A DNA stretch of 64,000 nt from Gaiellales bacterium (GTDB lineage: Bacteria; Actinomycetota; Thermoleophilia; Gaiellales; JAICJC01): NCBI GenBank assembly GCA_036403155.1, contig DASWRM010000074.1:1-64000 (forward strand). Reading direction: 5' to 3'. Of the stretch, positions 19,279-54,343 are shown piece by piece. The translations under genes were made by a program, and so were the position numbers. Position 1 is the first letter of the stretch; the number at the start of each line of letters is the position of its first letter. The notes below the pieces were generated by a model, which was given only the letters and a program-made list of their open reading frames with translations, did no database searches and had not been told where the DNA came from.

Positions 19279-21702
19279 CTACGCGCGGATGCGCTCGCCC
19301 GCAGGATCCCAGACCGGCTCGCTCACGGCCTGCGCCTGCACCCACTCGCCGAACACCTCGACCTCCACCCGGGTGCCGACCTCGGCCGCGGCAGCGGGGA
19401 GGTAGGCGTAGGCGATCGACCGCTCGACGGCGAATCCGTAGCCGCCGGTGGTGATGCGGCCGGCGATCTCGCCGCCCACCCGCACCGGCTCGGAGCCGAG
19501 GCAGACGGAGCGCGGGTCGTCGAGCACCAGGCAGCAGAGCCGCCGTTCGGCGTCGCGGCCGCGCGCGGCAAGGAGCGCGTCGCGCCCGATGAAGTCGCCC
19601 GTGTCCGGCTTGACGGCGAACGCGAGGCCGGCCTCGTCGGGCGTCTCCTCGGGCGTCATGTCCGAGCCCCAGACGCGGTAGCCCTTCTCGATCCGCAGGG
19701 CGTCGATGGCGCGGTAGCCGCAGGCGCGAAGCCCGTGGTCGCGGCCGGCCGCCCAGAGCAGGTCCCACAGCGCCTGTCCGTACTCGGACGGGCAGTAGAT
19801 CTCCCAGCCGAGCTCGCCGACGTAGGTGACCCGGACCGCGAGGCAGGGCACCGACCCGATCGAGAGCTCACGCGCGGTCATGTAGCGGAACGCCTGGTTG
19901 GAGATGTCCGTGCGGGTCAGCGGCTGGAGGATGTCCCTGGCGCGCGGCCCCCAGAGGCCGTAGCACGCGTACGCCGACGTCACGTCGGTCAGCTGGACGC
20001 TGCCGTCCGGTGGCAGGTGCTTTCGCACCCAGGCCATGTCGTGGTTGCCAAACGCGGTGCCCGTCACGATCCGGAAGCGGTCGTCCGCGAGCCGCGTGAC
20101 GGTGAAGTCGCATTCGATGCCGCCTCGGCGGTTCAGCATCTGGGTGTAGACGACCGACCCGGCGGGCCGGTCGACGTCGTTGGCGCACAGCATCTGCAGC
20201 GCCGCGAGCGCGCCGGGGCCGTGCACCTCGAACTTGGCGAAGGACGTCTCGTCGAACAGGCCCGCCCGCTCCCGGGTCGCGATCGCCTCCGCGTGGATCG
20301 CGGGCGACCAGTTCTCGCCCGCCCACCCTCGCGGGCGCAGCGACTCGTCGCCGTCCGCCGCGTTCGGCTCGAACCAGTTCGCGCGCTCCCACCCCGACTT
20401 CTCGCCGAACGATGCGCCCAGCTCGGCCAGCCGGGCGTAGGCGGGTGACAGCCGCAGCGGCCTGCCGGCCTGCCGCTCGTGGTTGGGGTACTTGATGTCG
20501 TAGTAGGTGGCGTAGACCTCGGTGGCCCGTGCCAGGGTGTATCTCTGGCTGCGGTATTGCCGGCCGAAGCGGCGGATGTCCATGTGCCAGATGTCGAGAC
20601 TCGGCTCGCCGTTGACGATCCACTCCGCCATCTGCCAGCCCATGCCGCCGGCGCCGGCGAGGCCGTGGGCGCAGAATCCGGCCGCCACCCAGAAGCCGGG
20701 AACGTCCGACTCGCCGAGGATGAACTCGCCGTCAGGGGTGAAGGCCTCGGGCCCGTTGAAGAGCTTCCTGACCTCGGCCTGCTCCATCGCCGGGACGCGC
20801 TCGATCGAGTTCTGGAGCAGCTCCTCGAACCGATCCCAGTCCTCGGGGAGCAGCTGCGCCTCGAACCCGTCGGGAACGCCGTCGAGCGCCCAGGGCGCGG
20901 GCGTGCGCTCGTAGCCGCCCATGATGAGGCCGCCCACCTCCGTCCGCCAGTAGACGAGGTTGTCCGGGTCGCGGAGGGTCGGCAGGGGCTGCAGGGGAGG
21001 ATCGAACGCCTCGGTGATGAGGAACTCGTGCGCGTAGGCCACGATCGGCACATCCACGCCGACCATGCGGGCGATCTGCGGCGCGTACATCCCGCCCGCG
21101 TTGATCACGACGTCGGTGCGGATGGTGCCCTTGTCGGTGACGACCTCGTGCACGCGGCCGTTGCGCAGGTTGATGCCGGTCACCCGCGTCCGCTGCTCGA
21201 TCTCCGCTCCGCGCAGCCGTGCGCCGTCCGCAAGCGCGAAGGTCAGCTGGCTGGGGTCGAGGTAGCCGTCCTGCGGGAGGAACGCCGCGCCCATCACGCC
21301 CTCGGTGCTCATCGGCGGGAACAGCTCCTGCGCCTCCTTGGCGGAGATCAGCTCGACCGGCAGGCCGAAGCTCTTCGCCCAGCCCGCCTGGCGCTGCAGC
21401 TCCTCCATCCGCGGGCGCGACGATGCGAGCCGGAGGCCGCCCAGCTCGTGCCAGCCGGGATCCTTGCCGGTCTCCTGCTCGACGTCGCGGTAGAGGCCGA
21501 CCGAGTACTGCATCATCTTGGTCAGGCTGACGGTCGAGCGCAGCTGGCCGACGAGGCCCGCCGAATGCCAGGTGGAGCCGTGCGTGAGGCCGTACTGCTC
21601 GACCAGCACGACGTCCGTCCAGCCGAGCTTGGCGAGGTGGTAGAGGATGCTGCAGCCGCCGACGCCGCCGCCGATGACCACCGCGCGGGCTTCAGAGCGC
21701 AT
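19279..21702 (-). CDS. FAD-dependent dimethylglycine/sarcosine dehydrogenase-like protein with GcvT domain
   Basis: An 807-residue protein with two halves. The FAD oxidoreductase half begins GGGVGGCSILYHLAKLG and has TWHSAGL, where His46 matches the covalent-FAD histidine of dimethylglycine and sarcosine dehydrogenases. The second half is a GcvT-type aminomethyltransferase domain (about 430-800, with GELGWEIYCPSEYG) that passes the methyl carbon to tetrahydrofolate. The likely reaction is oxidative N-demethylation of a methylated glycine. It overlaps the upstream HAD gene by 11 bases. This links it in theme to the methylamine genes, though it is 7-25 kb away. Confidence 0.88.
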   Translation of the reverse strand: MRSEARAVVIGGGVGGCSILYHLAKLGWTDVVLVEQYGLTHGSTWHSAGLVGQLRSTVSLTKMMQYSVGLYRDVEQETGKDPGWHELGGLRLASSRPRMEELQRQAGWAKSFGLPVELISAKEAQELFPPMSTEGVMGAAFLPQDGYLDPSQLTFALADGARLRGAEIEQRTRVTGINLRNGRVHEVVTDKGTIRTDVVINAGGMYAPQIARMVGVDVPIVAYAHEFLITEAFDPPLQPLPTLRDPDNLVYWRTEVGGLIMGGYERTPAPWALDGVPDGFEAQLLPEDWDRFEELLQNSIERVPAMEQAEVRKLFNGPEAFTPDGEFILGESDVPGFWVAAGFCAHGLAGAGGMGWQMAEWIVNGEPSLDIWHMDIRRFGRQYRSQRYTLARATEVYATYYDIKYPNHERQAGRPLRLSPAYARLAELGASFGEKSGWERANWFEPNAADGDESLRPRGWAGENWSPAIHAEAIATRERAGLFDETSFAKFEVHGPGALAALQMLCANDVDRPAGSVVYTQMLNRRGGIECDFTVTRLADDRFRIVTGTAFGNHDMAWVRKHLPPDGSVQLTDVTSAYACYGLWGPRARDILQPLTRTDISNQAFRYMTARELSIGSVPCLAVRVTYVGELGWEIYCPSEYGQALWDLLWAAGRDHGLRACGYRAIDALRIEKGYRVWGSDMTPEETPDEAGLAFAVKPDTGDFIGRDALLAARGRDAERRLCCLVLDDPRSVCLGSEPVRVGGEIAGRITTGGYGFAVERSIAYAYLPAAAAEVGTRVEVEVFGEWVQAQAVSEPVWDPAGERIRA

Positions 21703-28081: not shown

Positions 28082-29479
28082 GTGGCGACCGACCTCGAAC
28101 GGTTCGTCAGCGCCGACGGGCGAGACGACAAGATCGCTGAGGTGCGCCGGCGCATCGACGCCGAGGGCATCACCTACATCTACTACCAGTTCATCTCGGT
28201 CACCGGCCGGATCATGGGCAAGGGCGTGCCCGCGGCGCACTGGGAGAACATGGCCAAGAAGGGCTTCCAGCTGGTGTACGGCTCGACGGCGAACCTGTTC
28301 ACCGACCGCCACGGCGACTACATCGGGTATGGCCCGGAGGCGTGGGAGCTGGTCGGCATCCCCGAGCCCGAGACGTTCCAGCCGCTGCCCTGGGATGCGA
28401 AGGTGGCACGGGTCTGGTGCACGTGCTTCCGCGGCCGCGAGGACGAGAAGAACGGCGGCGGGTTCCTCAGCTCGGACTGCCGCGGCAACCTGAAGCGGAT
28501 CCAGGCCGACTTCGAGGAGCGCACGGGCCTGCACCTGCGCGCCGGCACCGAGCCGGAGATGATGTGGCTGAAGATGCGCCCGGACGGCACGCCCGACGTC
28601 GAAGGCGTGACCAAGCCCTACTGCTACCACATCGACCAGTTCTCCGAGCTCCAGCCGATCATCCACAAGGTGATCGAGTACGGCCAGGCGATGGGGCTCG
28701 ACATGATCCAGGGCGACCATGAGGACGCGCCCGGCCAGATCGAGCTGAACTTCAACTTCGGCCGTGCCGAGGAGACCGCTGACAACCTCAGCACGTTCCG
28801 GCAGATCTGCAAGCAGGTCGGCCGCGAGCTGAACGTGTTCCCGTGCTTCATGCCGAAGCCGTTCATGGGCGTGTCGGCCAACGGGTGCCACCACAACATC
28901 TCGCTGTGGCGCGGAGACGAGAACGTCTTCATGCCAGAGGGCGAGGACCAGCGGCTGCCCAGCCAGACCGGCCTCTACGCCATCGGCGGCGTGCTCGAGC
29001 ACCTGTCGGCGCTGACCGCCGTGACCGCCTCGACGGTGAACTCCTACCGCCGGCTGTGGGACACCGGCTTCTGGGCTCCCGTCTTCGCGGACTGGGGCTT
29101 CCAGAACCGCACCACGGCGCTGCGCGTGTCGGCCCCGGGGCGGTTCGAGTACCGCTCGGTCGACTCGGCCGTGAACCCGTATCTCTCGCTGGCGGCCCTG
29201 ATCAAGGCGATGGACGACGGAATCCAGCGATCGCTCGATCCCGGCGCCCCCGAGGAGCGCAACATCTACGAGGCGATGGCCGGCGGCAAGGAGGTCAAGC
29301 GCATCCCGATGACCTTCGGCGACGCCCTCGACGCACTGGACGAAGACGAGGTGATCCAGTCGGCGCTGCCCGACGAGATGCTCAAGGTGTTCCTCCACTA
29401 CAAGCGCGACGAGTGGGAGCGCTACTGCGCCGAGGTGACGGAATGGGACGTCAAGGAATACCTGGACGTTCTCCCGTAG
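28082..29479 (+). CDS. Glutamine synthetase-like enzyme of module 1 (GmaS-like)
   Basis: 465 residues with the glutamine synthetase fold: N-terminal beta-grasp (IYYQFISVTGRIMGKG), metal-binding AGTEPEMMW, NFNFGRAEETADN, FMPKPFMGVSANGCHHNISLW, and EYRSVDSAVNPYLSL. Enzymes of this type ligate glutamate to ammonia or an amine using ATP. Because split glutamate-synthase genes follow, as in gmaS-mgsABC clusters, gamma-glutamyl-amide formation is more likely than ammonia assimilation. It differs clearly from its paralog at 44835, so the amine may differ. GTG start with AAGGAGG. The following 194-base gap is highly structured. Confidence 0.82.
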   Translation: MATDLERFVSADGRDDKIAEVRRRIDAEGITYIYYQFISVTGRIMGKGVPAAHWENMAKKGFQLVYGSTANLFTDRHGDYIGYGPEAWELVGIPEPETFQPLPWDAKVARVWCTCFRGREDEKNGGGFLSSDCRGNLKRIQADFEERTGLHLRAGTEPEMMWLKMRPDGTPDVEGVTKPYCYHIDQFSELQPIIHKVIEYGQAMGLDMIQGDHEDAPGQIELNFNFGRAEETADNLSTFRQICKQVGRELNVFPCFMPKPFMGVSANGCHHNISLWRGDENVFMPEGEDQRLPSQTGLYAIGGVLEHLSALTAVTASTVNSYRRLWDTGFWAPVFADWGFQNRTTALRVSAPGRFEYRSVDSAVNPYLSLAALIKAMDDGIQRSLDPGAPEERNIYEAMAGGKEVKRIPMTFGDALDALDEDEVIQSALPDEMLKVFLHYKRDEWERYCAEVTEWDVKEYLDVLP

Positions 29480-29488
29480 GGCTCGACG

Positions 29489-29512
29489 CCGGTCCGCCGC
29501 GCGGCGGACCGG
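29489..29512. terminator. Perfect 24-bp palindrome after module 1 GS-like gene
   Basis: CCGGTCCGCCGC and GCGGCGGACCGG form an uninterrupted palindrome 9 bases after the stop codon. It probably terminates or attenuates between the GS-like gene and the amidotransferase gene. No T-tract. Confidence 0.55.
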
Positions 29513-29544
29513 TGAGCCCGCTGGGCGGTTAGCTGAGACGGCAC

Positions 29545-29594
29545 GGCACGGCCCTCCACTATGGACGATCCTCCATAGGCCGGAGGCCCGTGCC
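29545..29594 (+). promoter_or_regulatory. Long imperfect hairpin upstream of mgsA-like gene 1
   Basis: Outer arms 29545-29557 and 29582-29594 pair over 13 positions with one mismatch. Inner arms CTATGGA (29559-29565) and TCCATAG (29572-29578) pair perfectly around a 6-base loop. It ends 79 bases before the start at 29674. It may be an operator or an attenuator. A TACTAT box follows at about 29599. Confidence 0.55.
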
Positions 29595-29673
29595 GGCAGT
29601 ACTATCGGACTCCATTCGTGCTGGCGAAGCGGGATTGCAACGCCGGCCAGAGACCAGGAAAGGTTCTCCGCGT

Positions 29674-30603
29674 ATGTGTGGAATCGCAGGGATCATCTAC
29701 CGGGACGGCGCGCACGACATCGGGCGCGAGATGACCCGGATGCTTCAGTCGATGAAGCACCGCGGGCCGGATTCGACCGGCTACGCGCTGTTCGGGCCGC
29801 CGTCCGAGAGTGTCATGATGCGCTACAAGCTGGCCGATGCCAACGACGCGCGCGACTTCGAGTTCGAGGAGCGCCTCGAGCGCAACCGCGCCGAGGTGGA
29901 GACGCGGCTCCGCCAGCTCGGCGCGCGCGTGCACGAGGTGGAGGAGGAGACCGACTACGCGTTCCGCGTCAGGATGGACTTCGCCGGCAACCTCAAGGAG
30001 CTGGCGGACTTCATCGAGGACGTGCCGGGCGCCGAGGTGCTCTCGCTCGGCCATTCGCTCGAGATCGTGAAGGACCTCGGCGACGCCGAAACCGTCTGCA
30101 AGCAGTACGACCTGGACGAGTTCGGGGGCACGCACGCCATCGGCCACGTTCGCATGGCGACGGAGTCCGACGTCGACATCTCGGGCGCCCACCCCTACTG
30201 GGCCTACCCGTTCGCCGACGTGGCCGTCGTGCACAACGGCCAGCTCACCAACTACTTCCAGTGGCGCCGCCGCCTCGAGCGCAGCGGCCACCGGTTCCAG
30301 TCGGAGTGCGACTCCGAGGTGATCGCCGTGTATCTCGCCGAGAAGATGAGCGAGGGCCTCGACCTGGAGGCGGCGATGAACAAGAGCCTCGAGGAGCTCG
30401 ACGGCGTGTTCACCTACATCTGCGTGACCGACGACGCGCTCGGCGTCGCGAAGGACGAGATGGCCGCGAAGCCGCTGGTGCTGTACGAGTCGGACGACCT
30501 CGTCGCGCTGGCGTCCGAGGAGATCGCGATCCGCGCGATCATCGACCGTGAGATCGAGACGTACGACCCCTACGAGGGCGAGGTGCTGGTATGGACGCGG
30601 TAG
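29674..30603 (+). CDS. mgsA: Class II glutamine amidotransferase-like subunit (MgsA-like), module 1
   Basis: 309 residues beginning MCGIAGIIY, so Cys2 becomes the N-terminal nucleophile after Met removal. MKHRGPDSTG, HAIGHVRMATES and VVHNGQLTNY match Ntn-type GltB/PurF glutaminase domains. In N-methylglutamate synthase this subunit releases the amine from the gamma-glutamyl amide. About 90 residues are inserted between the two Ntn halves; the paralog at 46394 has the same insert, so it is a family trait. AGGAAAGG ribosome site. The gene overlaps the next by 13 bases. Confidence 0.82.
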   Translation: MCGIAGIIYRDGAHDIGREMTRMLQSMKHRGPDSTGYALFGPPSESVMMRYKLADANDARDFEFEERLERNRAEVETRLRQLGARVHEVEEETDYAFRVRMDFAGNLKELADFIEDVPGAEVLSLGHSLEIVKDLGDAETVCKQYDLDEFGGTHAIGHVRMATESDVDISGAHPYWAYPFADVAVVHNGQLTNYFQWRRRLERSGHRFQSECDSEVIAVYLAEKMSEGLDLEAAMNKSLEELDGVFTYICVTDDALGVAKDEMAAKPLVLYESDDLVALASEEIAIRAIIDREIETYDPYEGEVLVWTR

Positions 30604-31379
30604 GCGAGCGCAAGATCACCTATGACGCCCGCGGTCTGGTCGAGCCGGACGACACCGTCCTGAACGTCGCGGAGGTGGACGGGACGACGGCGGTGTTCGA
30701 CGCCGCGAACCTGACCACGCGGCAGATCAACCTTGAGCTGCGCAACCTGCTCTACGAGCGGGGCGTGAAGGACGTGACGGTCAAGAACCCGGGCGCGAAG
30801 CACTCGCTCGGGGTCGGCATCCTGACCCGCTGCAAGATCACGTTCGAGGGCAGCCTCGGCTACTTCGGCTGCGGGCTGATCGACGGCCCCGAGGTGCACA
30901 TCACCGGCCGGGTCGGCTGGTCGGCCTGCGAGAACATGATGTCGGGCGTCGTCGTCATCGAGGGCAACGCCGGCTCCCTGACGGGCGCAGCTCTGCGGGG
31001 CGGCGACCTGGTCGTGAAGGGCCGCGTCGGCGCCCGCTCGGGCATCGACCAGAAGGGCGGCACGATCATCACGCTCGGCAGCGCCGGCTCGATGACGGGG
31101 TTCATGATGCAGCGCGGGCGCCAGGTGATCTGCGGCGACGCCGGCCCCGGTCTGGGCGACTCCATGTACGACGGCATCATCTACGTCGGCGGCAAGGTGA
31201 AGGCGCTCGGCATCGACTGCGTTCCCGGCGAGTGGACGGATGCCGACACGGAGTTCATCGAGCGGAAGTTCCGCATCTACGGGCTCGGATCGCCGCCGGA
31301 GTTCCAGAAGTTCGTCTGCGGCAAGAAGCTCTACAACTACGACAACCTCGAGCCGTCCGAGCGCAAGCTCGTCCTCTAG
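30591..31379 (+). CDS. mgsB: GXGXG-domain glutamate synthase-like subunit (MgsB-like), module 1
   Basis: 262 residues forming the right-handed beta-helix of the GltB C-terminal domain. GXG-type repeats appear as VGWSACENMMSG, EGNAGSLTGAALRGG, GRVGARSGIDQKGG and GDAGPGLGDSMYDG. The domain has a structural role in glutamate synthases. It carries an extra N-terminal stretch of about 40 residues compared with the paralog at 47281. The 13-base overlap with the amidotransferase gene is the same length in both modules. Confidence 0.82.
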   Translation: MDAVGERKITYDARGLVEPDDTVLNVAEVDGTTAVFDAANLTTRQINLELRNLLYERGVKDVTVKNPGAKHSLGVGILTRCKITFEGSLGYFGCGLIDGPEVHITGRVGWSACENMMSGVVVIEGNAGSLTGAALRGGDLVVKGRVGARSGIDQKGGTIITLGSAGSMTGFMMQRGRQVICGDAGPGLGDSMYDGIIYVGGKVKALGIDCVPGEWTDADTEFIERKFRIYGLGSPPEFQKFVCGKKLYNYDNLEPSERKLVL

Positions 31380-31390
31380 GAGGCCCATAG

Positions 31391-32827
31391 ATGGCAACTG
31401 ACAAGACCTCCTCGCAGCGGAACGTGCTCGGGCACAGCCGCATCTTCACGCCCGAGGTGATCAACGACATCCACGTCAAGGCCGAGCTCGGGCGCTACCG
31501 CATGCGCGGGTTCTCGATGTTCAAGCCGATCCCGCACTGGGACGAGCTGATGTTTATGCCCGGCACCCTGACCCGGTTCGTGATCGAGGGCTACCGCGAG
31601 AAGTGCGAGACCAAGACCGTGATCGGCGGCCGCTTCGCCAAGAAGCCGCTCGAGCTCGACATCCCCGTCTACATCACCGGCATGAGCTTCGGCGCGCTGT
31701 CGCTCGAGGCCAAGATGGCGCTCGCGAAGGGCGCCTCGATGGCCGGCACGGCGACCTGCTCCGGCGAGGGCGGCATGATCCCGCCCGAGCGCGACCTGTC
31801 GACCAAGTGGTACTACCAGTGCATCCAGAGCCGGTACGGGTTCAACCCGCACCACCTGATGCTGGCCGACGCGTGCGAGTTCTTCATCGGCCAGGGCTGC
31901 AAGGTCGGCCTGGGCGGCCACCTGATGGGCCAGAAGGTGACGGAGCAGGTGGCCGAGATGCGGTCGCTGCCGGCCGGCATCGATCAGCGCTCGCCGGCCC
32001 GGCATCCGGACTGGCTGGGCCCCGACGACCTCTCGCTGAAGATCCAGGAGGTCCGTGAGGCGACGAACTACCAGATCCCGATCCAGCTGAAGCTGGGCGC
32101 TTCGCGCGTGTACGACGACGTCCGCATGGCGGCGAAGTGCGGCCCCGACGTGATCTACCTGGACGGCGCCGAGGGCGGGACCGGAGCTGGACCGCACATC
32201 GCCACCGAGGAGACCGGCATACCGCTGATGGCGGCGATCCCGGAGGCGCGCCGCGCGCTCGAGGACGTCGGCCTCGCCGACGAGATCGACCTCGTCGTCG
32301 CCGGCGGCATCCGCAACGGCGGCGACGTCGCGAAGTGCATCGCCCTCGGCGCGAAGGCCGTGGCGATCGGGCACTCCGCGCTGGTCGCCCTCAACTGCAA
32401 CAAGGAGATCCCCGGGGTCACCGACTTCGAGGGCACCATCGGCGTTCCCGCCGGCCAGTGCTACCACTGCCACACCGGCCGCTGCCCGGTCGGCGTGACC
32501 ACGCAGGATCCCGAGCTGCGCAAGCGGCTGGTCGTCGACGAGGCGGCCGAGCGGGTCTACAACTTCCTGCACACTCTGACGCTCGAGGTGCAGATGCTGG
32601 CCCGCGCGTGCGGCAAGACCAACATCCACAGCCTGGAGCCCGAGGATCTCTGCGCGCTGACCACCGAGGCCGCCGCGATGGCCCGTGTGCCGCTGGCCGG
32701 CACGACGTACATCCCGGGCGTGACCGAGGAGCGGACGCTGAACGAGATCCGCCGGCTGGTTGCGCGCCAGCACCAGGATGACGTGCTGAGCTCCCACGAC
32801 ACGCCGCTGCATGCGGCTGGAGACTGA
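31391..32827 (+). CDS. mgsC: FMN/Fe-S glutamate synthase-domain subunit (MgsC-like), module 1
   Basis: 478 residues with the (alpha/beta)8 FMN barrel of glutamate synthase: ITGMSFGALSLEAKMALAKG, SGEGGMIPPE, DGAEGGTGAGP and VAGGIRNGGDVAKCIALGA. Cys357, Cys360 and Cys365 (CYHCHTGRC followed by PVGVTTQD) fit the [3Fe-4S] site. The subunit would reduce the 2-oxoglutarate-amine imine to an N-alkylglutamate. No separate GltD-like reductase is encoded nearby, so the electron donor is unknown. GGAGG ribosome site, 11 bases after the previous stop. Confidence 0.85.
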   Translation: MATDKTSSQRNVLGHSRIFTPEVINDIHVKAELGRYRMRGFSMFKPIPHWDELMFMPGTLTRFVIEGYREKCETKTVIGGRFAKKPLELDIPVYITGMSFGALSLEAKMALAKGASMAGTATCSGEGGMIPPERDLSTKWYYQCIQSRYGFNPHHLMLADACEFFIGQGCKVGLGGHLMGQKVTEQVAEMRSLPAGIDQRSPARHPDWLGPDDLSLKIQEVREATNYQIPIQLKLGASRVYDDVRMAAKCGPDVIYLDGAEGGTGAGPHIATEETGIPLMAAIPEARRALEDVGLADEIDLVVAGGIRNGGDVAKCIALGAKAVAIGHSALVALNCNKEIPGVTDFEGTIGVPAGQCYHCHTGRCPVGVTTQDPELRKRLVVDEAAERVYNFLHTLTLEVQMLARACGKTNIHSLEPEDLCALTTEAAAMARVPLAGTTYIPGVTEERTLNEIRRLVARQHQDDVLSSHDTPLHAAGD

Positions 32828-32829
32828 CG

Positions 32830-33261
32830 ATGACGAAGGAACCCGACAAGACCACCGTCGGCATCGACGCCGAGTACCTGTCCGGCCATCGCTTCCCGTA
32901 CCAGGAGGACATGAGCCTGATCGAGGACATCGATCTCATGGCCGCGACGCCGGGCGAGGACATCAACTGGCTGGAGGACGTCGAGCTGCTCGAAGAGGAC
33001 GGCCTTCCGGCGGTCTTCGACCGGTATTCGAACTCGTTTCTGAAGCTCTACTTCGACGTTCCGGCCGGGCGCGAGAACGAGATCGCGCGCAAGGTGCTGA
33101 TCATGCACCTCCAGTCCGGGAACAGCTACGGGATCCAGCTGAAGGAGCAGCACTGCAAGTTCCCTCAGCCCGAGCTGGGCAGCTGGGTCGAGAACTCGAA
33201 GACCGTCGGCGAGAACTGGCAGCCGCCGGTGCTCGAGGGCTGGGAACCGCCGATCCACTGA
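32830..33261 (+). CDS. Unrecognised 143-residue protein ending module 1
   Basis: The start is 2 bases after the mgsC-like stop, so the gene belongs to the operon. The first half is acidic (MSLIEDIDLM, EDINWLEDVELLEEDG); the second half alternates strand-like stretches (NSFLKLYFDVPAG, NEIARKVLIMHLQSGNSYGI) and ends with conserved-looking aromatic/proline residues (WQPPVLEGWEPPIH). One Cys, no signal, no membrane segment. I recognise no family. Module 2 has no counterpart and has the dehydrogenase genes at this place instead. An accessory or small catalytic subunit is possible. Confidence 0.75.
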   Translation: MTKEPDKTTVGIDAEYLSGHRFPYQEDMSLIEDIDLMAATPGEDINWLEDVELLEEDGLPAVFDRYSNSFLKLYFDVPAGRENEIARKVLIMHLQSGNSYGIQLKEQHCKFPQPELGSWVENSKTVGENWQPPVLEGWEPPIH

Positions 33262-33900: not shown

Positions 33901-34323
33901 CTACTCCAGCAGCGCGGCCGCCTTCTCGACCATCTCCCGCTCGCCGCGGTAGCTCAGCCGCTTCAAGTCGTCCAGCGGGATCCATTGCGCGCGTGCCACC
34001 TCCCGCCGCATGGCCGGCTGGATGTGCCCGATCCGGCCGCGGCGGAAGCGCAGCAGATAGAAGATCACCACCTTGAACACCCGCACCCCGCCGCGCGTGT
34101 AGACGTACCGCACGTCACCGAGCCGGCGATCGAGCGAGCACTCGATCCCCGCCTCCTCGTGCACCTCCCGCAGCGCTGTGGCGTCGGCCTGCTCCCCCGG
34201 GTCGATCAGCCCCTTGGGCAGGGCCAGCACGTCCGGCCGGCCGGCCGGCTCGATCGCGGCGAACCACCAGCGGCCGCGCATGCGGCGGACGGCGACGCCA
34301 CCCGACGACAGCTCGCGCGGCAT
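33901..34323 (-). CDS. NUDIX hydrolase
   Basis: 140 residues with a complete Nudix box (GLIDPGEQADATALREVHEE, then AGI). Such enzymes cleave nucleoside diphosphate compounds. The ATG at 34323 overlaps the stop of the upstream hydrolase gene as TGATG, so translation is coupled. Last gene of a minus-strand operon that converges on module 1. The 90 bases before it (33811-33900) hold no recognisable feature. Confidence 0.88.
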   Translation of the reverse strand: MPRELSSGGVAVRRMRGRWWFAAIEPAGRPDVLALPKGLIDPGEQADATALREVHEEAGIECSLDRRLGDVRYVYTRGGVRVFKVVIFYLLRFRRGRIGHIQPAMRREVARAQWIPLDDLKRLSYRGEREMVEKAAALLE

Positions 34324-35081
34324 CAGGCCGCCGGTGCGGCCCGCCTGTCGGCCGCCGCAGCAACGAACGCCCGGAAGACGCCGAGCCACCGGTCGTCCCA
34401 CCGCCAGCCCTCGTGCAGCTCGCACTGCATCGCGAGCACGAACCGTCCCGGCATCTCCAGCGCCTCGATGACGCCGTCGGAGGCGCGCGCCGACACGACC
34501 AGCCCTTCGCCGATCCGATCGACGGCCTGATGGTGGAAGCTGTCCACCTCCGCCTCCTCGGCCCCGGTGAGCTCGTGCAGCAGTGATCCGGGCTCGATGC
34601 CGATCGGATGGCGCGGGTGCTCCGGCACCGGCGCACCGGCCATGGTCGCGTCCTTGAAGCGGCGCCAGTACCGGCCGGTGGCATCGCTCGGGTGGCCGCG
34701 GTATGCCGGGTCGAGGCTCAGGTCCTGGAGCATCGTCCCGCCCAGCGCGACGTTCAGGGCCTGCATGCCCCGGCAGGCGCCGATGATCGGCATGCCACGG
34801 TCGACGGCGCGTCGGATGAGATCGAGCTCGAACGCGTCCCGCGCCGGGTCGAGCGGGCCGAGCAGCGCATGCGGCTCCTGGCCGTAGCGTGCCGGGTCGA
34901 TGTCGTGCCCCGCTGCGATCATCAGCCCGTCGACGCGGTCGAGCAGGTCGTCGACCGCCTCCTCCAGTCGCGGCAGCGTGACCGGCAGCCCGCCGGCCAT
35001 GGCGATCGGCCGCTGGTAGCCCTCGCCGAGGTAGTCGCCGACGTCCCGGAAGCTGGTGGAGACCCCGATCAGCGGCTTCAT
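34323..35081 (-). CDS. Peptidase C26 / gamma-glutamyl-amide hydrolase-like (PuuD-type)
   Basis: 252 residues with the class I amidotransferase-like fold: LMIAAGHDIDPARYG, the nucleophile elbow GACRGMQALN (Cys103), and GGTMLQDL. PuuD-type enzymes hydrolyse gamma-glutamyl amides such as gamma-glutamyl-GABA. The usual C-terminal QWHPE is replaced by MQCELHEGW, so the catalytic His-Glu pair is displaced or altered and activity is uncertain. Its location beside a GS-like gamma-glutamyl ligase module and a flavin oxidoreductase recalls gamma-glutamylated amine catabolism. Starts 16 bases after the flavoprotein stop. Confidence 0.78.
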   Translation of the reverse strand: MKPLIGVSTSFRDVGDYLGEGYQRPIAMAGGLPVTLPRLEEAVDDLLDRVDGLMIAAGHDIDPARYGQEPHALLGPLDPARDAFELDLIRRAVDRGMPIIGACRGMQALNVALGGTMLQDLSLDPAYRGHPSDATGRYWRRFKDATMAGAPVPEHPRHPIGIEPGSLLHELTGAEEAEVDSFHHQAVDRIGEGLVVSARASDGVIEALEMPGRFVLAMQCELHEGWRWDDRWLGVFRAFVAAAADRRAAPAA

Positions 35082-35097: not shown

Positions 35098-36405
35098 TCA
35101 CGACCACGGGTAGGGGCTGTTCGACACCGGGTGCAGGTCGCCCGTCGCGAACCGCTCGTAGCGGAACGGGTAGAGCAGGCTGCTGTGGCCGCCGGTGACG
35201 ACCTTCGCCACCTCGCGTCCGACCCCGATCATCTTATAGCCGTGGTTCGAGTCGGCGATCACGTAGACGTTCGGGCGCATGTAGTCGAACACCGGGAAGC
35301 TGTCGACGGTGAAGCAGCCGACGCCGCCGGAGCGGATGTTCCGGTACGTCGCGCGCTTGCCCTCGAACCGCTTCATGCAGTGCGACAGCGATGCGCACCA
35401 CATGTCCGCGAAGGCGGGCTCCACCGACGCCGTCGGATACGGATCGACCTCGAACTCCTCGCCGACGATGACGGGCGCCGCTCCGCCCTGCACGCCGTGC
35501 AGGTCCTGCTTGAAGTAGTTGCCCCAGAACTCGTCCGTGATCAGCTTGCCGTCGTCGTCGTAGAGCGGGGCGTCCGAGTCGACGTGGAGCACCGGCGGCA
35601 TGGAGCCGTCCTCGAGCGAGAGCAGCTTCGGGTCGACCTCGATCTCGCCCTCCTGGAGGTACCAGTAGGTCCACATGTTCTTGTTCTCGTGCAGCTCCCC
35701 GTCCGGCGTGCGCACGTCGAGCCGGTTGGGAAGGCCGAGCATCGTCCAGATCTCCTCGACCCAGGGGCCGACGCCGACGATCACCTGCTCGGGCGCGATG
35801 TCCCCCTGGTCGGTGTGCACCGTGGTCACCGCGCCGGAGCCGTCCATCTCGAAGCCGGTCACACGCACGCCGTCGACGAGCCGTGCACCGGCCTGCTTGG
35901 CCTTCGCCGCGAGCCCGTGCAGCGACGCCATGTTGTTGGCGAAGCCGCCCTTCTCCTCGTGCAGGCAGACGTGTACGCCCTGTGCCCGCCAGTCGGGGAA
36001 GAGGCGGAGCATGTAGTCCCGCACCTCCTGCTCGCCGACCACAAGCTCCGACGGATAGCCGATGTTCTGCTGGCGCTGGTGCACCTCGGTCAGGTCGCCG
36101 ACCTGACGCTCGGCGCCGAGCGCCATGTAGCCGACCGGGTGGTAGCTGAAAGCCTCCGGATCCTGCTCCCACACCTCGACGTTCGCGGCCATCAGCTCGC
36201 TCATCGCCGGCTGGTAGTAGTTGTTGCGAACGACGCCGCAGGCAATGCCGGACGCGCCGGCACCAACCCCGGTCTTGTCGATCACCAGGACGTCGGGCTC
36301 CTCCCCTGAGGCGGCCTGCTCCTTGGCCAGGTGCCAGGCGCTCGAGAGGCCGTGGATACCGGCCCCGATGACGAGGTACTTCACCGACGAGGGAAGCGAA
36401 GACAT
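35098..36405 (-). CDS. FAD-dependent oxidoreductase, MgdA/SoxB-like single chain
   Basis: 435 residues of the DAO family. The Rossmann motif is LVIGAGIHGLSSAWHLA, followed by GVGAGASGIACGVVRNNYY, much like the SoxB-type protein at 53113 (GAGASGRNTTIIRSNY). The C-terminal VIADSNHGYKMIGVG is the second FAD-contact region. It probably oxidises an N-substituted amino acid. Single-chain relatives oxidise sarcosine or gamma-glutamyl amines. Because module 1 lacks its own dehydrogenase, this enzyme is a candidate for that step. Start 36405 has a GAAGGAG ribosome site. Confidence 0.82.
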   Translation of the reverse strand: MSSLPSSVKYLVIGAGIHGLSSAWHLAKEQAASGEEPDVLVIDKTGVGAGASGIACGVVRNNYYQPAMSELMAANVEVWEQDPEAFSYHPVGYMALGAERQVGDLTEVHQRQQNIGYPSELVVGEQEVRDYMLRLFPDWRAQGVHVCLHEEKGGFANNMASLHGLAAKAKQAGARLVDGVRVTGFEMDGSGAVTTVHTDQGDIAPEQVIVGVGPWVEEIWTMLGLPNRLDVRTPDGELHENKNMWTYWYLQEGEIEVDPKLLSLEDGSMPPVLHVDSDAPLYDDDGKLITDEFWGNYFKQDLHGVQGGAAPVIVGEEFEVDPYPTASVEPAFADMWCASLSHCMKRFEGKRATYRNIRSGGVGCFTVDSFPVFDYMRPNVYVIADSNHGYKMIGVGREVAKVVTGGHSSLLYPFRYERFATGDLHPVSNSPYPWS

Positions 36406-36450
36406 GGCGGCGTGGGCTCCTTCCATTGCCTTTACGGCAATAGCGTTTCT

Positions 36451-37227
36451 CTACTGGACCGGCTCATTGTACCCCAGGCTCGCGGACAGCGCACGTGCCC
36501 GCTCGAGCAGCACCGGGAGCGCGGCGTCGCGCTTCTTGCGGCCGAAGCGGCCGGCCGGCCCCTGGACGCCGAGGATCGCTGCGAGCGCGCCGTTTGCGCC
36601 GAAGACGGGCGCCGCAAGCGCGTTCAGGTCGACCTCGCGCTCCTTCACCCCCTGCGCCCACCCCTGGTTGCGCACCTGTGCGATCTCGGCCTTCAGCGCC
36701 TTGCGGTCGACCATCGTGCGGTCCGTGAACCGCTCGAGATCGCCGTCCGGCAGCGGTGCGGGCGCGAAGGCGAGCATCACCTTGCCCGTCGCGGTGGCGT
36801 GCGCGACGCTCGGGCGGCCGACCCGTGCCACGCTCGCAACGGACTGGCGACTGGCGACGAAGTCGACCGTGACCGCCTCCCGCTCGCCGCCGATCGACAG
36901 GGTCGCCGTCTCGCCGGTCGCCTCCTCGAGCGCCGCGAGATGCGGCCGCGCGAGGGCGCGCAGATCGAGGCTCGACATCATGTGGTTGGCCAGGCGGATC
37001 AGGTGCGGTCCGAGCCGGTAGCGCCCGGAATCCGGCAGGTGCTCGACGTACCCGCCTGCCACGAGCGTCGAGAGCAGGCGCGAGACGGTGCTTGCGTTGA
37101 TGCCCGTGCGCCGGGAGATCTCGTTCGTGCCAACCTCGCCGGGGATCTCCAGGAAGGCGTCGAGCACGCGGAGCGCCCGCTCCACCGCCTCGAGGCGCCG
37201 CTCTGCCGGTCGTCCGGTGGGTGGCAT
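36451..37227 (-). CDS. IclR-family transcriptional regulator
   Basis: 258 residues: N-terminal winged helix (NEISRRTGINASTVSRLLSTL, residues about 35-55) and an IclR effector domain (ATATGKVMLA and AAPVFGANGALAAILGVQG). It lies 45 bases upstream of the flavoprotein gene on the same strand, so it probably regulates that operon in response to a small-molecule ligand, and perhaps module 1 opposite. No separate promoter was resolved. Confidence 0.92.
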   Translation of the reverse strand: MPPTGRPAERRLEAVERALRVLDAFLEIPGEVGTNEISRRTGINASTVSRLLSTLVAGGYVEHLPDSGRYRLGPHLIRLANHMMSSLDLRALARPHLAALEEATGETATLSIGGEREAVTVDFVASRQSVASVARVGRPSVAHATATGKVMLAFAPAPLPDGDLERFTDRTMVDRKALKAEIAQVRNQGWAQGVKEREVDLNALAAPVFGANGALAAILGVQGPAGRFGRKKRDAALPVLLERARALSASLGYNEPVQ

Positions 37228-38271: not shown

Positions 38272-39792
38272 ATGGCTACGGCTGTTGTCGAGGAACGGGA
38301 GCTCCTCAAGACGATCAGCTGGTTCGACGGGTTCGTCGTGGCGCTCGCCAACCCGAGCTTCCTCATCACGGGCCTGGGCGGCTCGGCACTGTCGCTGGGC
38401 GGCTGGTGGGCGGTGATCCTGTGGACCGCGTCCGTGCTGCTCGGCGCGCTGCACAACTACATCTACTCCGAAACGGCGGCGATGTTCCCGAAGCTCTCGG
38501 GCGGCATCGCGATCTACGCGCACGAGGCATGGAAACGCTACTTCTCGTTCGTCGGCCCGGTCGCGGCGTTCGGCTACTGGATCGGCTGGTCCGTGGTGCT
38601 CTCGGCCACCGGCGTCGTCGTCGGCTTCCTCATCCAGGCGCAGTTCTACACCTCGTCGGCGACCTCGGGATTCTGGACGGCGGACGCGAGGCACTTCCTC
38701 GGGATCCCCTTCTACTGGTCCTTCCCGATCGCGCTGACGTCGGTGATCATCATCATCATCTGGGCGTTCAACGTGTCGGGCATGCGTCCGGCGGTGTGGG
38801 TCGGGTACATCACCGGAGCTCTGCTCCTGATCCCGCTCGCCGTGATCATGTTCCTGCCCTATCTCACCGGTGACTGGCACAGCTCGAACCTGCACAACAC
38901 GCTGAGCGCAAACGCCCACGGGCTGGGGACCAGCAGCGCCACGTTGGCGGTGGTGTGGCTCTATGCGATGTGCTGGTCGTCGTACGGCATGGAATGCTGC
39001 GCGACGTTCGCGCCCGAATACCACGATACGGCGCGCGACACGCCGAAGGCCCTGCGCGTCGCGGCCATCTTCGGCGTGATGGTGTACGGCCTGCTGCCGC
39101 TCGGGGCGATCGGCACGTTCGGTGACAAGAACATCACGCTCGACAACTACCTGGGCAACTTCTACGCCACGACGTTCCACGACATCCTGGGCGGCGGAAC
39201 CGGCCTGGCGATCCTGCTCCTGTGCGCCGGCATCGTCCTCGCCATGAACACCGCCACGGCGGACGGGTCGCGGGCGCTCTACGGCATCTCGCAGGACGGG
39301 ATGACGATCCGGTGGCTGGGGAGGCTGAACAGCAAGCACGTTCCGGCCAATGCGATGACGCTGGATGCGCTGCTCAACATCGTGCTGCTGTTCACGTTCG
39401 CGTCCGACGCCTCGGGGGCGTTGAAGATCCTGATCTTCTCGAACCTCGGCTACGTGCTCTGCCATGTGTTCGCGATGTCGGGCTTCCTGCTGCTGCGCAA
39501 GGACCGGCCGGACTGGCCGCGCCCGATCCGGGTCGGTCCGGTCTGGGTCGCCATCGCCGGCGTGCTGGCTGCCTTCGATGCCGTGCTGCTGGTCTGGGGT
39601 GGCTGGAATTCCGGCCTGGCATGGGGCGACACGAGCAAGACGACGGTGTTCCAGGGCATAGCGGTGCTGTTGATCGCCGTCGTGCTGTACGTCTTCCGGG
39701 TGGTCGTGCAGGACCGCCGAAAGCTGGCGTTCCGCATCTGGGCGCCGCGAACGCCGGACGAGCAGCCGCCTGTGGGCGTGGCCGTCGAGTAA
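38272..39792 (+). CDS. APC-superfamily amine/amino acid permease
   Basis: 506 residues with about 12 membrane segments. The start region SWFDGFVVALANPSFLITGLGG is the substrate/ion site of TM1 in amino acid-polyamine-organocation carriers. A GGAGG ribosome site stands before the ATG. It lies between the two gamma-glutamyl-amine modules, so uptake of an amine or N-methyl amino acid is a reasonable inference; the substrate cannot be read from sequence. A strong terminator follows. Confidence 0.85.
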   Translation: MATAVVEERELLKTISWFDGFVVALANPSFLITGLGGSALSLGGWWAVILWTASVLLGALHNYIYSETAAMFPKLSGGIAIYAHEAWKRYFSFVGPVAAFGYWIGWSVVLSATGVVVGFLIQAQFYTSSATSGFWTADARHFLGIPFYWSFPIALTSVIIIIIWAFNVSGMRPAVWVGYITGALLLIPLAVIMFLPYLTGDWHSSNLHNTLSANAHGLGTSSATLAVVWLYAMCWSSYGMECCATFAPEYHDTARDTPKALRVAAIFGVMVYGLLPLGAIGTFGDKNITLDNYLGNFYATTFHDILGGGTGLAILLLCAGIVLAMNTATADGSRALYGISQDGMTIRWLGRLNSKHVPANAMTLDALLNIVLLFTFASDASGALKILIFSNLGYVLCHVFAMSGFLLLRKDRPDWPRPIRVGPVWVAIAGVLAAFDAVLLVWGGWNSGLAWGDTSKTTVFQGIAVLLIAVVLYVFRVVVQDRRKLAFRIWAPRTPDEQPPVGVAVE

Positions 39793-39862: not shown

Positions 39863-41254
39863 CTACGAACTGGAGCCGTTCGAGCCGGCCTCGGACATCA
39901 GCCGCTCGGCCAGCTCGCGCTTCTGATCTGGCGAGAACTTCTTCAGCTCGTTGTTCAGCACGCGCTCGTTGATGGCGACGTTCCAGTAGTCGAGCGAGTC
40001 GACCCCGAGCAGGGCCGTCTTGCCGACAAACTGCCGCAGCACCTCGTTGGTCGGGCCCATCACCCAGCCGGCCTTGCCGTCGCGGAGGTAGCGCTCGAGC
40101 TGCAGCGGCTCCTTCTTGTACCCGGTGCCGCCGCAGCAGTGGAGCATCTTGTCGACGACGTGCGCGACGTTCTTGGCGGCGTTGAACTTGATCTGCCACG
40201 CCCAGTGCAGGTAGTTCCCGCGTGCCAGGTCGCCGATCGGCGGATTCGTCTTGCCGCCGTCGGTCGCGTTGTCCATCGCCTGCGCCACCGAGAAGACGAA
40301 GCAGCGCGAAGCGTTCGTGTCCATGATCGCCTCGCCGACCGCGTCCTGGATCGTCGGGTAGTCCGCGACGCGCATGCCCACGTCCTTGTGCTTCTTGACC
40401 GTCGTATGGCGGATCGCGATGTCGATGGAGCCCAGCGCGATGCCGTTCCAACAGCCGGACGAACCGATCAGGAAGTACGGGTCGACGGCCTCGTCGTTGG
40501 AGTTGGCCCCGTCGCCGATCGGCCCGACGAGCTGGTTCTCGGGGACGAACTTCCAGTCCAGCAGCAGCGTGCCGGACTGGTTGCCGCGCAGGCCCATCGC
40601 GTCCCACTCCTGCGGCTTCGCCTCGATCTCGTCCTTGTCGACCACGAACACCGACAGGTTCGAGTAGTCGCCGTTGTACTCGGGCGACGTCGTCTGCAGG
40701 ACGTAGAAGTCCGCAAACCCGGCAGACGTCGTCCACGACGCCTTCTTCAGCACCTCGTAGCCGCCGTCGACCTTGCGGGCACCGGACGCGATCGGGTACC
40801 AGAAGTGCGAGCCGGTCTCCGGGTCGGAGTACGAGAGCGTCCCGAGCAGGCCTTCCCGCACCCGCTTCAGGTACTTGTCGACGATGTGATCCGTCGCGCG
40901 CAGGCGGAGCGCCTCGACGGCGCCCGTGTGCATGACGTAGCACATCGCGCACGATGCGTCGCCGTAGCGGGCGATCGTCTCGGTGACAGCCGCGTACATC
41001 ACATGGTTCTGTCCGAGGCCGCCCCACTCCTTCGGCAGCAGCAGGCCAAGGAATCCGTCGGGGCCGAGCGCCTCGAGGCTCTTGCGCGGGAAGGTCAGCG
41101 TGCGGTCGTTCTCAGCCGCCAGCGGCCTGATCGTCTCTTCGCAGATCTCCTTCAGCCGCTCGAGCAGGCGGAGCTGCTCCTCGGTGAAAAACCAGTCGGG
41201 CTGGAACATCGGGTCGAGCCCGGCCATGGCCGACTCAGGAGCGACCGTTGCCAT
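39863..41254 (-). CDS. Acyl-CoA dehydrogenase-family flavoprotein
   Basis: 463 residues with acyl-CoA dehydrogenase architecture: helical N-domain (LKEICEETIRPLAAENDR, LLPKEWGGLG), middle beta-domain (TLSYSDPETGSHFWYP, KKASWTTSAGFADFYVLQTT) and C-terminal helices (CCGGTGYKKEPLQLERYLRD). The family includes dehydrogenases and FAD monooxygenases or oxidases of non-CoA substrates. The catalytic glutamate was not assigned. Neighbouring amine genes leave room for a non-CoA substrate. GAGGAG ribosome site. Confidence 0.82.
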   Translation of the reverse strand: MATVAPESAMAGLDPMFQPDWFFTEEQLRLLERLKEICEETIRPLAAENDRTLTFPRKSLEALGPDGFLGLLLPKEWGGLGQNHVMYAAVTETIARYGDASCAMCYVMHTGAVEALRLRATDHIVDKYLKRVREGLLGTLSYSDPETGSHFWYPIASGARKVDGGYEVLKKASWTTSAGFADFYVLQTTSPEYNGDYSNLSVFVVDKDEIEAKPQEWDAMGLRGNQSGTLLLDWKFVPENQLVGPIGDGANSNDEAVDPYFLIGSSGCWNGIALGSIDIAIRHTTVKKHKDVGMRVADYPTIQDAVGEAIMDTNASRCFVFSVAQAMDNATDGGKTNPPIGDLARGNYLHWAWQIKFNAAKNVAHVVDKMLHCCGGTGYKKEPLQLERYLRDGKAGWVMGPTNEVLRQFVGKTALLGVDSLDYWNVAINERVLNNELKKFSPDQKRELAERLMSEAGSNGSSS

Positions 41255-44834: not shown

Positions 44835-46211
44835 ATGGCCACTGTCAGCGCGCGTCCACTCGCAGACACGATCCGCGCGAAGGCGGAACAGGACGGGATC
44901 AAGTTCTTCTTCGCGCAGTTCGTGGATATGCACGCGAAGCCCTCGGCGAAGCTCGTGCCGATCGAGAACTGGGAGAACCTCGTCACCGAGGGTGCGGGCT
45001 TCGCGGGCTTCGCCGCCGGCCCGATCGGCCAGACGCCGGCATCGCCCGACATGATGGCGATCCCCGACCTGGGCAGCTACACCCCCGTCCCGTTCAAGCC
45101 GGGGCTGGCGCGGTTCGCATGCGACATCACCGTCGAGGGTGAGGAGTGGCCGTACTGTCCCCGGACGATTCTCCGGCGCCAGATCGAGCGGGCGAAGAAG
45201 CTCGGATACACGTTCAAGGTCGGCATGGAGCTGGAGTTCTTCCTCCTGCGTGAGACGGAGGACGGACGCCTCGAGCTCGCAGACCCGCTCGACCGGCTCG
45301 ACCAGCCGTGTTACGACATGAAGGGCCTGACCCGGCAGTACGAGTTCCTCAGCCAGCTGTCCACGTACATCAACCAGCTCGGCTGGGGCAGCTACGCGAA
45401 CGACCACGAGGACGCGAACGGCCAGTTCGAGTCGAACTTCGAGTTCGCCGACGCCCTGACCACCGCCGACCGCGCGATCTTCTTCCGCTACATGGTGCAC
45501 GCCATGGCCCAGGAGCGGGGGATGCTGGCGACGTTCATGGCCAAGCCGTTCGGCCACCTGACGGGCAACGGCGGCCACTTCCACATGTCGCTGTGGGACG
45601 AGAGCGGAACGACCGACCTGTTCAAGGACGACGACGACCCCAACGGGCTCGGCCTCTCGAAGCTGGGCTACCAGTTCACCGCCGGGCTGAAGAAGCACGC
45701 GAAGGCCTACATCGCCGTGACGGCGCCGACGGTCAACTCCTACAAGCGCCTCACCACCACCGCCGGCACGCCCACGTCGGGCGCCACCTGGTCGCCGATC
45801 TTCATCACCCACGGTGCCAACAACCGCACGCAGATGCTGCGCCTGCCCGGCGGCCACGTCGAGGATCGAACGGTGGACGGCTCGTGCAACCCCTACCTCG
45901 CGATGGCGGTGATCCTCGCCGCGGGCCTGGACGGGATCGAGAAGGACATGGACGCCGGGCCGCACAACGACGACAACCTGTACGAGCTGACCGAGAAGGA
46001 GCTGAAGCGGCGCAAGATCGAGCTGCTTCCGGCCAACCTGCTCGACGCGACGCGGCACCTCGAGAAGGATCAGGTGATCCGGGAGGCACTCGGAAACACG
46101 GGCACCGAGGACTACGTCGACTACTACGTGAAGACGAAGCAGGACGAGTGGAAGGCCTACCACGAGCAGGTCACGCCGTGGGAGGTCAGCCGCTACCTGA
46201 CGCTGTTCTAG
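44835..46211 (+). CDS. gmaS: Gamma-glutamylmethylamide synthetase (glutamine synthetase type III-like)
   Basis: 458 residues with glutamine synthetase motifs: GMELEFFLL, NDHEDANGQFESNF, MAKPFGHLTGNGGHFHMSLW, TVNSYKRL and DRTVDGSCNPYLAMA. The form is that of GlnT/GmaS proteins. In methylotrophs GmaS joins methylamine to glutamate with ATP. The eight genes after it supply all later steps of the N-methylglutamate pathway, which strongly supports this role over ammonia assimilation. ATG with GAAGGAG ribosome site. A 182-base structured gap separates it from mgsA. Confidence 0.88.
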   Translation: MATVSARPLADTIRAKAEQDGIKFFFAQFVDMHAKPSAKLVPIENWENLVTEGAGFAGFAAGPIGQTPASPDMMAIPDLGSYTPVPFKPGLARFACDITVEGEEWPYCPRTILRRQIERAKKLGYTFKVGMELEFFLLRETEDGRLELADPLDRLDQPCYDMKGLTRQYEFLSQLSTYINQLGWGSYANDHEDANGQFESNFEFADALTTADRAIFFRYMVHAMAQERGMLATFMAKPFGHLTGNGGHFHMSLWDESGTTDLFKDDDDPNGLGLSKLGYQFTAGLKKHAKAYIAVTAPTVNSYKRLTTTAGTPTSGATWSPIFITHGANNRTQMLRLPGGHVEDRTVDGSCNPYLAMAVILAAGLDGIEKDMDAGPHNDDNLYELTEKELKRRKIELLPANLLDATRHLEKDQVIREALGNTGTEDYVDYYVKTKQDEWKAYHEQVTPWEVSRYLTLF

Positions 46212-46225
46212 GCGGAACCGCCGAG

Positions 46226-46262
46226 CCGGGTCTGCCGTTGCGGGCTGACCCGGCCGGCCCCT
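46226..46262 (+). repeat. Hairpin repeat shared with 24520-24554
   Basis: CCGGGTC...GACCCGG can pair, and the string gggctgacccggccggcc is identical to that at 24534-24551. It lies 15 bases after the gmaS stop and may reduce read-through into mgsA. Confidence 0.55.
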
Positions 46263-46393
46263 GCACGCCCGGCCCGTGTGCACTTCCCCACACACCGCCC
46301 GCGGGAATTGCATCCCCGCTGGCACTGCCCCCGACCCGCGGAGATCCATAGGATGGTGGCTCCACCGCTGTCGTCTGGAAAGGACTGGTCCAC

Positions 46394-47293: not shown

Positions 47294-47985
47294 CGAGCGA
47301 GATCGACTGCGCGCAGCACACGACGCGCGAGATCAACCAGGCGATCAAGCGGGCGGCCGCCGACGGCGTCCCCGAGGTGCGCCTGACCAACCCCGCCGCG
47401 CGGCACTGCCTCGCCGTGGCGGTGATGGCGCCGGTGCGCATCGTCTTCGACGGCCCGGTGGGCTGGTACTGCGGGGGCATGTGCGACGGCGCCGACATCG
47501 TCGTCAACGGCAACTGCGGCTGGAGCCTCGGCGAGAACCTGATGTCCGGGTCGATCTCGGTGCACGGCAACGGCGGCAGCTCCGCCGGCGCGACCATCCG
47601 CGGCGGGCGCATCTTCGTCGAGGGAGACACGGGCGCCCGCAGCGGCATCGCGATGAAAGGCGGCACCCTCGTCGTCGGCGGCTCCGTCGGCTACATGTCG
47701 GCGTTCATGATGCAGCGCGGCACGATCATCGTCTGCGGCGACGCGGGCGACGGCATCGGCGACTCGATGTACGAGGGCACCGTCTTCGTGGGCGGGTCGA
47801 TCCACTCGCTCGGCGCGGACTGCGTCGAGGCGGAGCTGACCGGCGACGACCGCGCAATGCTCGAAACGGAGCTGACGGCCAGCGGCATCGACGCCGGTGC
47901 CGGCGACTGGAAGAAGCTCGTGTCCGGCCGCAAGCTCTGGAACTTCTCGAAGCACGAGTATGACCACTGGAGGGCGGCGCTATGA
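47281..47985 (+). CDS. mgsB: N-methylglutamate synthase subunit B, GXGXG domain
   Basis: 234 residues of right-handed beta-helix: CGWSLGENLMSG, GNGGSSAGATIRGG, GDTGARSGIAMKGG and GDAGDGIGDSMYEG. It is homologous to the GltB C-terminal domain and to the protein at 30591, but lacks the longer N-terminus seen there. GTG start inside mgsA. It overlaps mgsC by 4 bases. Confidence 0.87.
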   Translation: MATLTSEIDCAQHTTREINQAIKRAAADGVPEVRLTNPAARHCLAVAVMAPVRIVFDGPVGWYCGGMCDGADIVVNGNCGWSLGENLMSGSISVHGNGGSSAGATIRGGRIFVEGDTGARSGIAMKGGTLVVGGSVGYMSAFMMQRGTIIVCGDAGDGIGDSMYEGTVFVGGSIHSLGADCVEAELTGDDRAMLETELTASGIDAGAGDWKKLVSGRKLWNFSKHEYDHWRAAL

Positions 47986-54324: not shown

Positions 54325-54343
54325 CATCGAAAAAGGAGCAACG

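Follow-up and report, generated by a model that had tools for sequence, protein, structure and literature searches.

A second GmaS-MgsABC gene module with a conserved fifth gene in Gaiellales and other Actinomycetota, and its possible role in dimethylamine utilization

Why does a Gaiellales bacterium carry two sets of genes for a glutamine synthetase (GS)-like ligase and an N-methylglutamate synthase (NMGS), and what might the first of them do? Both sets lie in the stretch analysed here, 64 kb of contig 74 (DASWRM010000074.1) of a 3.2 Mb assembly, which we call the window. Module 1 (28082-33261) is a row of five genes, GS1-mgsA1-mgsB1-mgsC1-X143, as judged from open reading frames and Pfam matches, and module 2 (about 44838-56020) consists of GS2-mgsABC2 followed by mgdB-C-D-A and fhs. 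A preliminary description, made from the sequence alone, had noted in module 1 a second, paralogous GS-like/MgsABC set ending in a 143-residue protein of no recognised family, an MgsB with an N-terminal extension and a GS-like protein divergent from its module 2 paralog; reading frames and Pfam matches agree with the first, alignment to MgsB2 and P. aminophilus MgsB gives an extension of about 28-33 residues, and GS1 and GS2 are indeed only 31-33% identical. We argue that module 1 has about an even chance of being an undescribed pathway for dimethylamine (DMA), which would replace DMA monooxygenase in Actinomycetota and in some Pseudomonadota and Chloroflexota. In enzymatic terms, and with the same degree of belief, it would be a variant GmaS-NMGS system with an extra subunit, acting on DMA.

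All five genes of module 1 lie on the plus strand. GS1 (28082-29479), a GmaS-like gamma-glutamylamide ligase, has a GTG start after aggaggaac and matches Gln-synt_C with 290 bits. MgsA1 (29674-30603), a class-II glutamine amidotransferase-like subunit (GATase_6/7; 47% identical to MgsA2), begins with MCGIAG, which points to Cys2 as the nucleophile; its gene overlaps by 13 bases that of MgsB1 (30591-31379), the GXGXG subunit, recognised by Pfam and alignment. MgsC1 (31391-32827) carries the flavin mononucleotide (FMN)-binding glutamate-synthase domain (Glu_synthase, 313 bits) and is separated by 2 bases from X143 (32830-33261), the conserved protein of 143 residues. Adjacent genes for a class-II amidotransferase, a GXGXG protein and an FMN glutamate-synthase domain, by which an MgsABC set is recognised, are thus all present. 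The module-1 MgsB proteins of other loci have a median length of 264 amino acids, and MgsC1 is 76-94% identical among module-1 loci and 55% identical to MgsC2.

X143 gave no match above noise in Pfam, NCBIfam or PDB sequences, its AlphaFold model (mean pLDDT 86, pTM 0.80) found no counterpart among PDB folds (best E 0.65), and a search against plasmids yielded nothing useful. Homologs are 60-87% identical across Actinomycetota, and 54 columns are invariant in 26 of them. Of the 299 genomes of the class 43 encode the protein, and scanning genome contigs detected at least 575 relatives; we read the 80 best loci. Wherever a distinct locus leaves room for it (98 of 98), mgsC lies directly upstream of X143, and the full order GS1-mgsA-mgsB-mgsC-X143 is kept in 69 of the 70 loci with enough upstream sequence; only in L138 does the GS gene lie on the opposite strand. 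Because the loci were retrieved through X143, these counts mean that X143 was never seen without the module; they do not imply that X143 is present in all such modules. Conserved co-occurrence of this gene with GS-like/MgsABC sets, which had been proposed as a check, is therefore borne out. A spurious reading frame was considered and ruled out by a conservation far beyond chance, the invariant columns and the kept five-gene order. The hosts are Thermoleophilia, Acidimicrobiia, Pseudonocardiaceae, Euzebyaceae and a metagenome-assembled genome (MAG) of Chloroflexota; homologs of 31-34% identity occupy the same gene position in Oceanospirillaceae, Roseovarius, Pseudaestuariivita and Neomegalonema. 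From its position, its conservation and the 2-base spacing to mgsC we propose that X143 is a fourth subunit of the module-1 synthase. Two loci titled Bifidobacterium breve (L107 and L123) carry a Thermoleophilia-type module and match the class genomes G204 and G294, so that their titles look wrong. In Roseovarius (L149:10380-11231) a carbon-nitrogen hydrolase gene, possibly for a gamma-glutamylamide or ketoacid amidase, lies directly 3' of the X143 homolog.

GS1 is 34% identical to P. aminophilus GmaS. Its best PDB match is the glutamate-methylamine ligase 9qur with 217 bits, compared with 411 bits for GS2 against the same chain, and it scores 322.7 bits with the GmaS model TIGR03105, below the cut-off of 469.6. 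With the residues that form the amine site of RhGmaS taken from the literature (PMC7948447), the GmaS catalytic set (Tyr147, Gln175, Asp177, Glu179, Glu186, Asn188, and Trp for GS Glu304) was found in 59 of 59 GS1 rows. The ammonium-site residues of GS are lost, Asp50' being Tyr66 and Glu304 being Trp331 (Trp as in GmaS), Asp212 and Asn223 stand at the GS His and Asp positions, and Tyr174 of GmaS is replaced by Ile. Tyr66 was placed by HMMER alignment, the all-family MAFFT column being off by one and unused there; equating Asp50 with Ser39 of GS1 was ruled out, as Asp50' lies within FDGSS, where the HMMER alignment gives Tyr66. In a tree of 63 sequences the module-1 GS proteins form one clade (Shimodaira-Hasegawa-like approximate likelihood ratio, SH-aLRT, 100) and GS2 joins GmaS (SH-aLRT 98); this was a quick search, in which long branches were flagged outside the module-1 and GmaS/GS2 groups. 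The genome itself (G000) has eight GS-family genes in 3.2 Mb, only some with canonical GS residues, among them at least two of GlnA type (L001, L002). We infer that GS1 is an alkylamine ligase, neither an ammonia GS nor a plain GmaS, and a role as ammonia ligase appears unlikely from its residues. A divergent subclade of module-1 GS (L051, L053, L055, L062/L101, L063, L065, L070 and L138), about 53% identical to GS1 of the window, has the equivalents of Gln175 and Tyr174 changed while its MgsC and X143 stay close to those of the window; an exchange or retuning of the ligase may lie behind this.

The neighbours of module 1 point to methylated amines. Among them is a DUF1989-GCV_T protein, the architecture of trimethylamine N-oxide (TMAO) demethylase, Tdm (PMC12560246), which shares 54.7% identity over 774 residues with what is annotated, and discussed, as Tdm in P. 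aminophilus (PMC4543880), and a flavin-containing monooxygenase (FMO) 56-70% identical to the trimethylamine (TMA) monooxygenase Tmm of P. aminophilus. Tdm or Tmm, at 50-70% identity to the P. aminophilus proteins, adjoins module 1 in two phyla; Tdm or a part of it was found near the module in about 23 distinct loci (L128 and L133, which match the GcvT part alone, are left out) and Tmm in 11 of those, and GcvT-type proteins together with MgdA recur beside it. Among 396 Actinomycetota genomes, 12 carry X143 and 10 a full-length Tdm, with both in 9, X143 only in 3 and Tdm only in 1 (Fisher p ~4e-15, not corrected for phylogeny; the p-values given here are descriptive and ignore shared ancestry). 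The two genes are 1-12 kb apart in seven of the nine shared genomes, 35 kb apart in one and on different contigs in one. Two Tdm-bearing genomes, G033 and G053, lack X143; other members of the genus of G033 (g4) carry it, so an assembly gap is possible there.

Tdm makes DMA, and in P. aminophilus tdm is adjoined by dmmDABC, mutants of which fail on DMA (PMC4543880). DmmC belongs to PF11927, which was found in 0 of 80 genomes of the class and 0 of 18 other non-proteobacterial genomes with X143, hence in 0 of 98 outside Pseudomonadota, absences that are soft since many of these genomes are MAGs. Homologs of PF11927, DmmA or DmmB were not found in the module-1 loci.

A further gene follows the module through the genomes. 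Orthologs of DAO (35098-36426, minus strand; PF01266), a sarcosine-oxidase-type flavoprotein, occur in 35 of 40 genomes of the class with X143 (33 at 57% identity or more) compared with 3 of 40 without it (Fisher p ~1e-13). The gene stands directly behind X143 in Acidimicrobiia and nearer module 2 in several Thermoleophilia, and those Pseudonocardiaceae loci that have mgd next to module 1 lack it. Its profile and its fold are those of sarcosine oxidase (Foldseek 3ada_B, E 6e-28). All 23 homologs compared keep R67, Y70 and K398, of which the Arg and Lys align to SoxB beta; the three match the carboxylate-holding residues of the sarcosine oxidase family (Arg52/Tyr55/Lys348; PMC12582975), a match that suits an N-methyl amino acid and not free DMA. 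We propose that DAO is the N-methylglutamate-type demethylase of module 1. MgdA, at 55% identity or more, was present in 34 of 40 genomes with X143 and 2 of 40 without, and 34 of the 40 with X143 have at least two mgsC genes. The preliminary description had module 1 lacking a dehydrogenase and possibly making an N-substituted glutamate as its end product; neither view finds support, as DAO co-occurs with the module, directly behind X143 in Acidimicrobiia, and MgdA accompanies most copies.

From the linkage to Tdm and Tmm and the absence of DMA monooxygenase we infer DMA as the substrate, a sharper form of the different amine that the preliminary description had considered. Since Tdm makes DMA, no known DMA monooxygenase is found, a methylamine module is mostly present and module 1 sits at the place of dmmDABC, a DMA branch would be the simplest fit. 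Methylamine appears to be covered already, given the two or more mgsC genes in most of these genomes and the grouping of GS2, not GS1, with GmaS. RhGmaS turns over DMA, though poorly (Km 16 mM, kcat 2.6/s; PMC7948447), so that ligation of DMA is chemically possible. In the proposed pathway GS1, using ATP, would ligate DMA to glutamate at its gamma-carboxyl to give gamma-glutamyl-dimethylamide; MgsA1 would free DMA within a complex of MgsABC1 and X143; and MgsC1, with FMN, would couple DMA to a 2-oxoglutarate unit and reduce the iminium to N,N-dimethylglutamate. DAO, or Mgd where DAO is absent, would then take off one methyl to leave N-methylglutamate, and MgdABCD the second, yielding glutamate and one-carbon units. 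In this synthase X143 would serve as an obligate subunit with a structural or tunnelling function. The chemistry of MgsABC itself is not fully settled (PMC6237917).

Several points weigh against this pathway. All GmaS catalytic residues being present, GS1 could equally use methylamine, and a methylamine role would account as well for four genomes (G300, G311, G315, G316) that have module 1 and mgdA but no module 2; the gene content of one of them, G315 (L142), with Tmm, Tdm and DAO and no PF11927, favours DMA. Tdm was not found in the window's own genome. A PF11927 gene is present in 4 of 5 proteobacterial genomes with X143, and three of these aligned to DmmC at 28-30%; in the stretches read, no match to DmmA, DmmB or DmmD was found beside them. 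The search for a DMA enzyme covered the Dmm families, and none was aimed at an FMN-type DMA dehydrogenase. Finally, the literature searched offered no case of N,N-dimethylglutamate serving as an intermediate of catabolism and nothing on gamma-glutamyldimethylamide.

The main rival to the DMA pathway is that module 1 is a second NMGS set for methylamine, of other affinity or regulation, DMA being demethylated by another enzyme, for example an FMN-type DMA dehydrogenase or, in Thermoleophilia, the acyl-CoA-dehydrogenase-family flavoprotein described below. We regard this as possible but doubtful. GS1 retains every residue of the GmaS catalytic set, has a glutamate-methylamine ligase as its best PDB match and occurs, as said, in some genomes with mgdA and without module 2, and methylamine too lies downstream of Tdm; but a second such set would be redundant in the 34 of 40 genomes with X143 that carry both modules, and it would leave DMA without an enzyme. 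Moreover, GS1 forms a clade apart from GmaS and GS2, a DAO that tracks the module would be superfluous next to MgdABCD, and none of the clusters with Tmm was found to hold the acyl-CoA-dehydrogenase gene.

Rather less probable is a different amine as the substrate of module 1, such as ethylamine, isopropylamine, ethanolamine or an N-methylated compound, with DAO oxidising the N-alkylglutamate to glutamate and an aldehyde. The distinct GS1 clade with its altered amine-site neighbours would suit this, as would the activity of RhGmaS with ethylamine and propylamine (PMC7948447) and the many genomes with X143 in which Tdm was not found (27 of 40 in the class). Methylated amines are nevertheless indicated by the presence of X143 in 9 of the 10 Tdm-bearing Actinomycetota, by the neighbouring position of the two genes in two phyla, and by the GcvT-type proteins and MgdA that recur beside the module. 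That DAO demethylates free DMA directly, leaving methylamine to module 1, is very unlikely: DAO tracks X143 and PF11927 is absent, but DMA has no carboxylate for the invariant triad to hold, on which ground we reject this role, and the Pseudonocardiaceae loci do without DAO. Least credible of all is a role of module 1 in ammonia assimilation, as a modular glutamine synthetase/glutamate synthase, which the homology of the subunits to GS and GltB and an ammonium transporter gene near some module-1 copies might suggest, but which we reject on the GS1 residues, with canonical GlnA-type enzymes already in the genome and module 1 being rare (12 of 396) and tied to Tdm.

Set beside known systems, the putative DMA module resembles the N-methylglutamate pathway (GmaS-MgsABC-MgdABCD) in its ligase type and catalytic residues, its MgsA, MgsB and MgsC homologs and the presence of MgdA in most genomes with X143; it differs in the separate GS1 clade, X143, the MgsB extension, the sarcosine-oxidase-type partner and the linkage to Tdm and Tmm, usually in a genome that also carries a full methylamine module. 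Three MgsABC subunits of M. extorquens DM4 sufficed to make N-methylglutamate in P. putida (PMC6237917); the module-1 loci always carry X143 as well. Module 1 holds the neighbourhood place of DmmDABC, following Tmm, Tdm and a permease where the DMA step is due, but shares no homology with it and would use ATP and glutamate instead of a haem/iron monooxygenase. In the PuuA-PuuD and gamma-glutamylanilide systems a GS-like ligase likewise activates an amine as a gamma-glutamyl amide, and the window has a PuuD-like hydrolase nearby; those systems are not known to include an MgsABC-type transfer to the alpha-nitrogen. DAO shares with the sarcosine oxidase/dimethylglycine dehydrogenase family the fold and the carboxylate-binding Arg-Tyr-Lys, at an identity of only about 20% by structure alignment.

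The PuuD-like protein is a Peptidase C26 gamma-glutamyl hydrolase (34323-35081, minus strand; Pfam 191 bits), with a possible role in salvage of gamma-glutamyl amides, and is found near X143 also in loci L090 and L098. Beyond DAO lies an IclR-family regulator (36451-37227, minus strand; domain match), a recurrent neighbour of module 1, and then an APC permease (38284-39792, plus strand), a distant relative of the TMAO permease (NF053774 210.7 bits, below the cut-off of 690). In three Pseudonocardiaceae loci (L121, L129, L131) a TmoP-like permease, 45-49% identical to P. aminophilus TmoP, lies directly 3' of X143. The acyl-CoA-dehydrogenase-family flavoprotein (39863-41254, minus strand) has orthologs adjoining Tdm in seven Thermoleophilia-type loci (L040, L042, L056, L059, L062/L101, L080, L138), and FMO-type Tmm is found in eleven others, the two never together; it may be a non-orthologous TMA oxygenase. 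Module 2, on the plus strand, comprises GS2 (44838-46211), a GmaS by its grouping and its matches to 9qur (411 bits) and 7cql (383 bits), MgsA2, MgsB2 and MgsC2 (46394-49409; 39-55% identical to P. aminophilus MgsABC) and the N-methylglutamate dehydrogenase genes for MgdB, MgdC, MgdD and MgdA (49409-54324; MgdA 43% identical to that of P. aminophilus), the Mgs and Mgd genes being read from open reading frames. Upstream of module 1 a DAO-GcvT fusion of dimethylglycine/sarcosine dehydrogenase type (19279-21702) is another N-demethylation gene.

In the literature the DMA step counts as a genetic bottleneck in the breakdown of methylated amines, because many bacteria that have Tdm and GmaS are without dmmDABC (PMC5520151). 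If our reading is true, Actinomycetota that are widespread in soils, fresh water and the sea would have, in a Tdm-linked module without Dmm, another route for DMA, and the reading of TMAO and DMA turnover from genomes would change. GmaS/NMGS chemistry would in addition reach a secondary amine, and the X143 family would gain a directly testable role.

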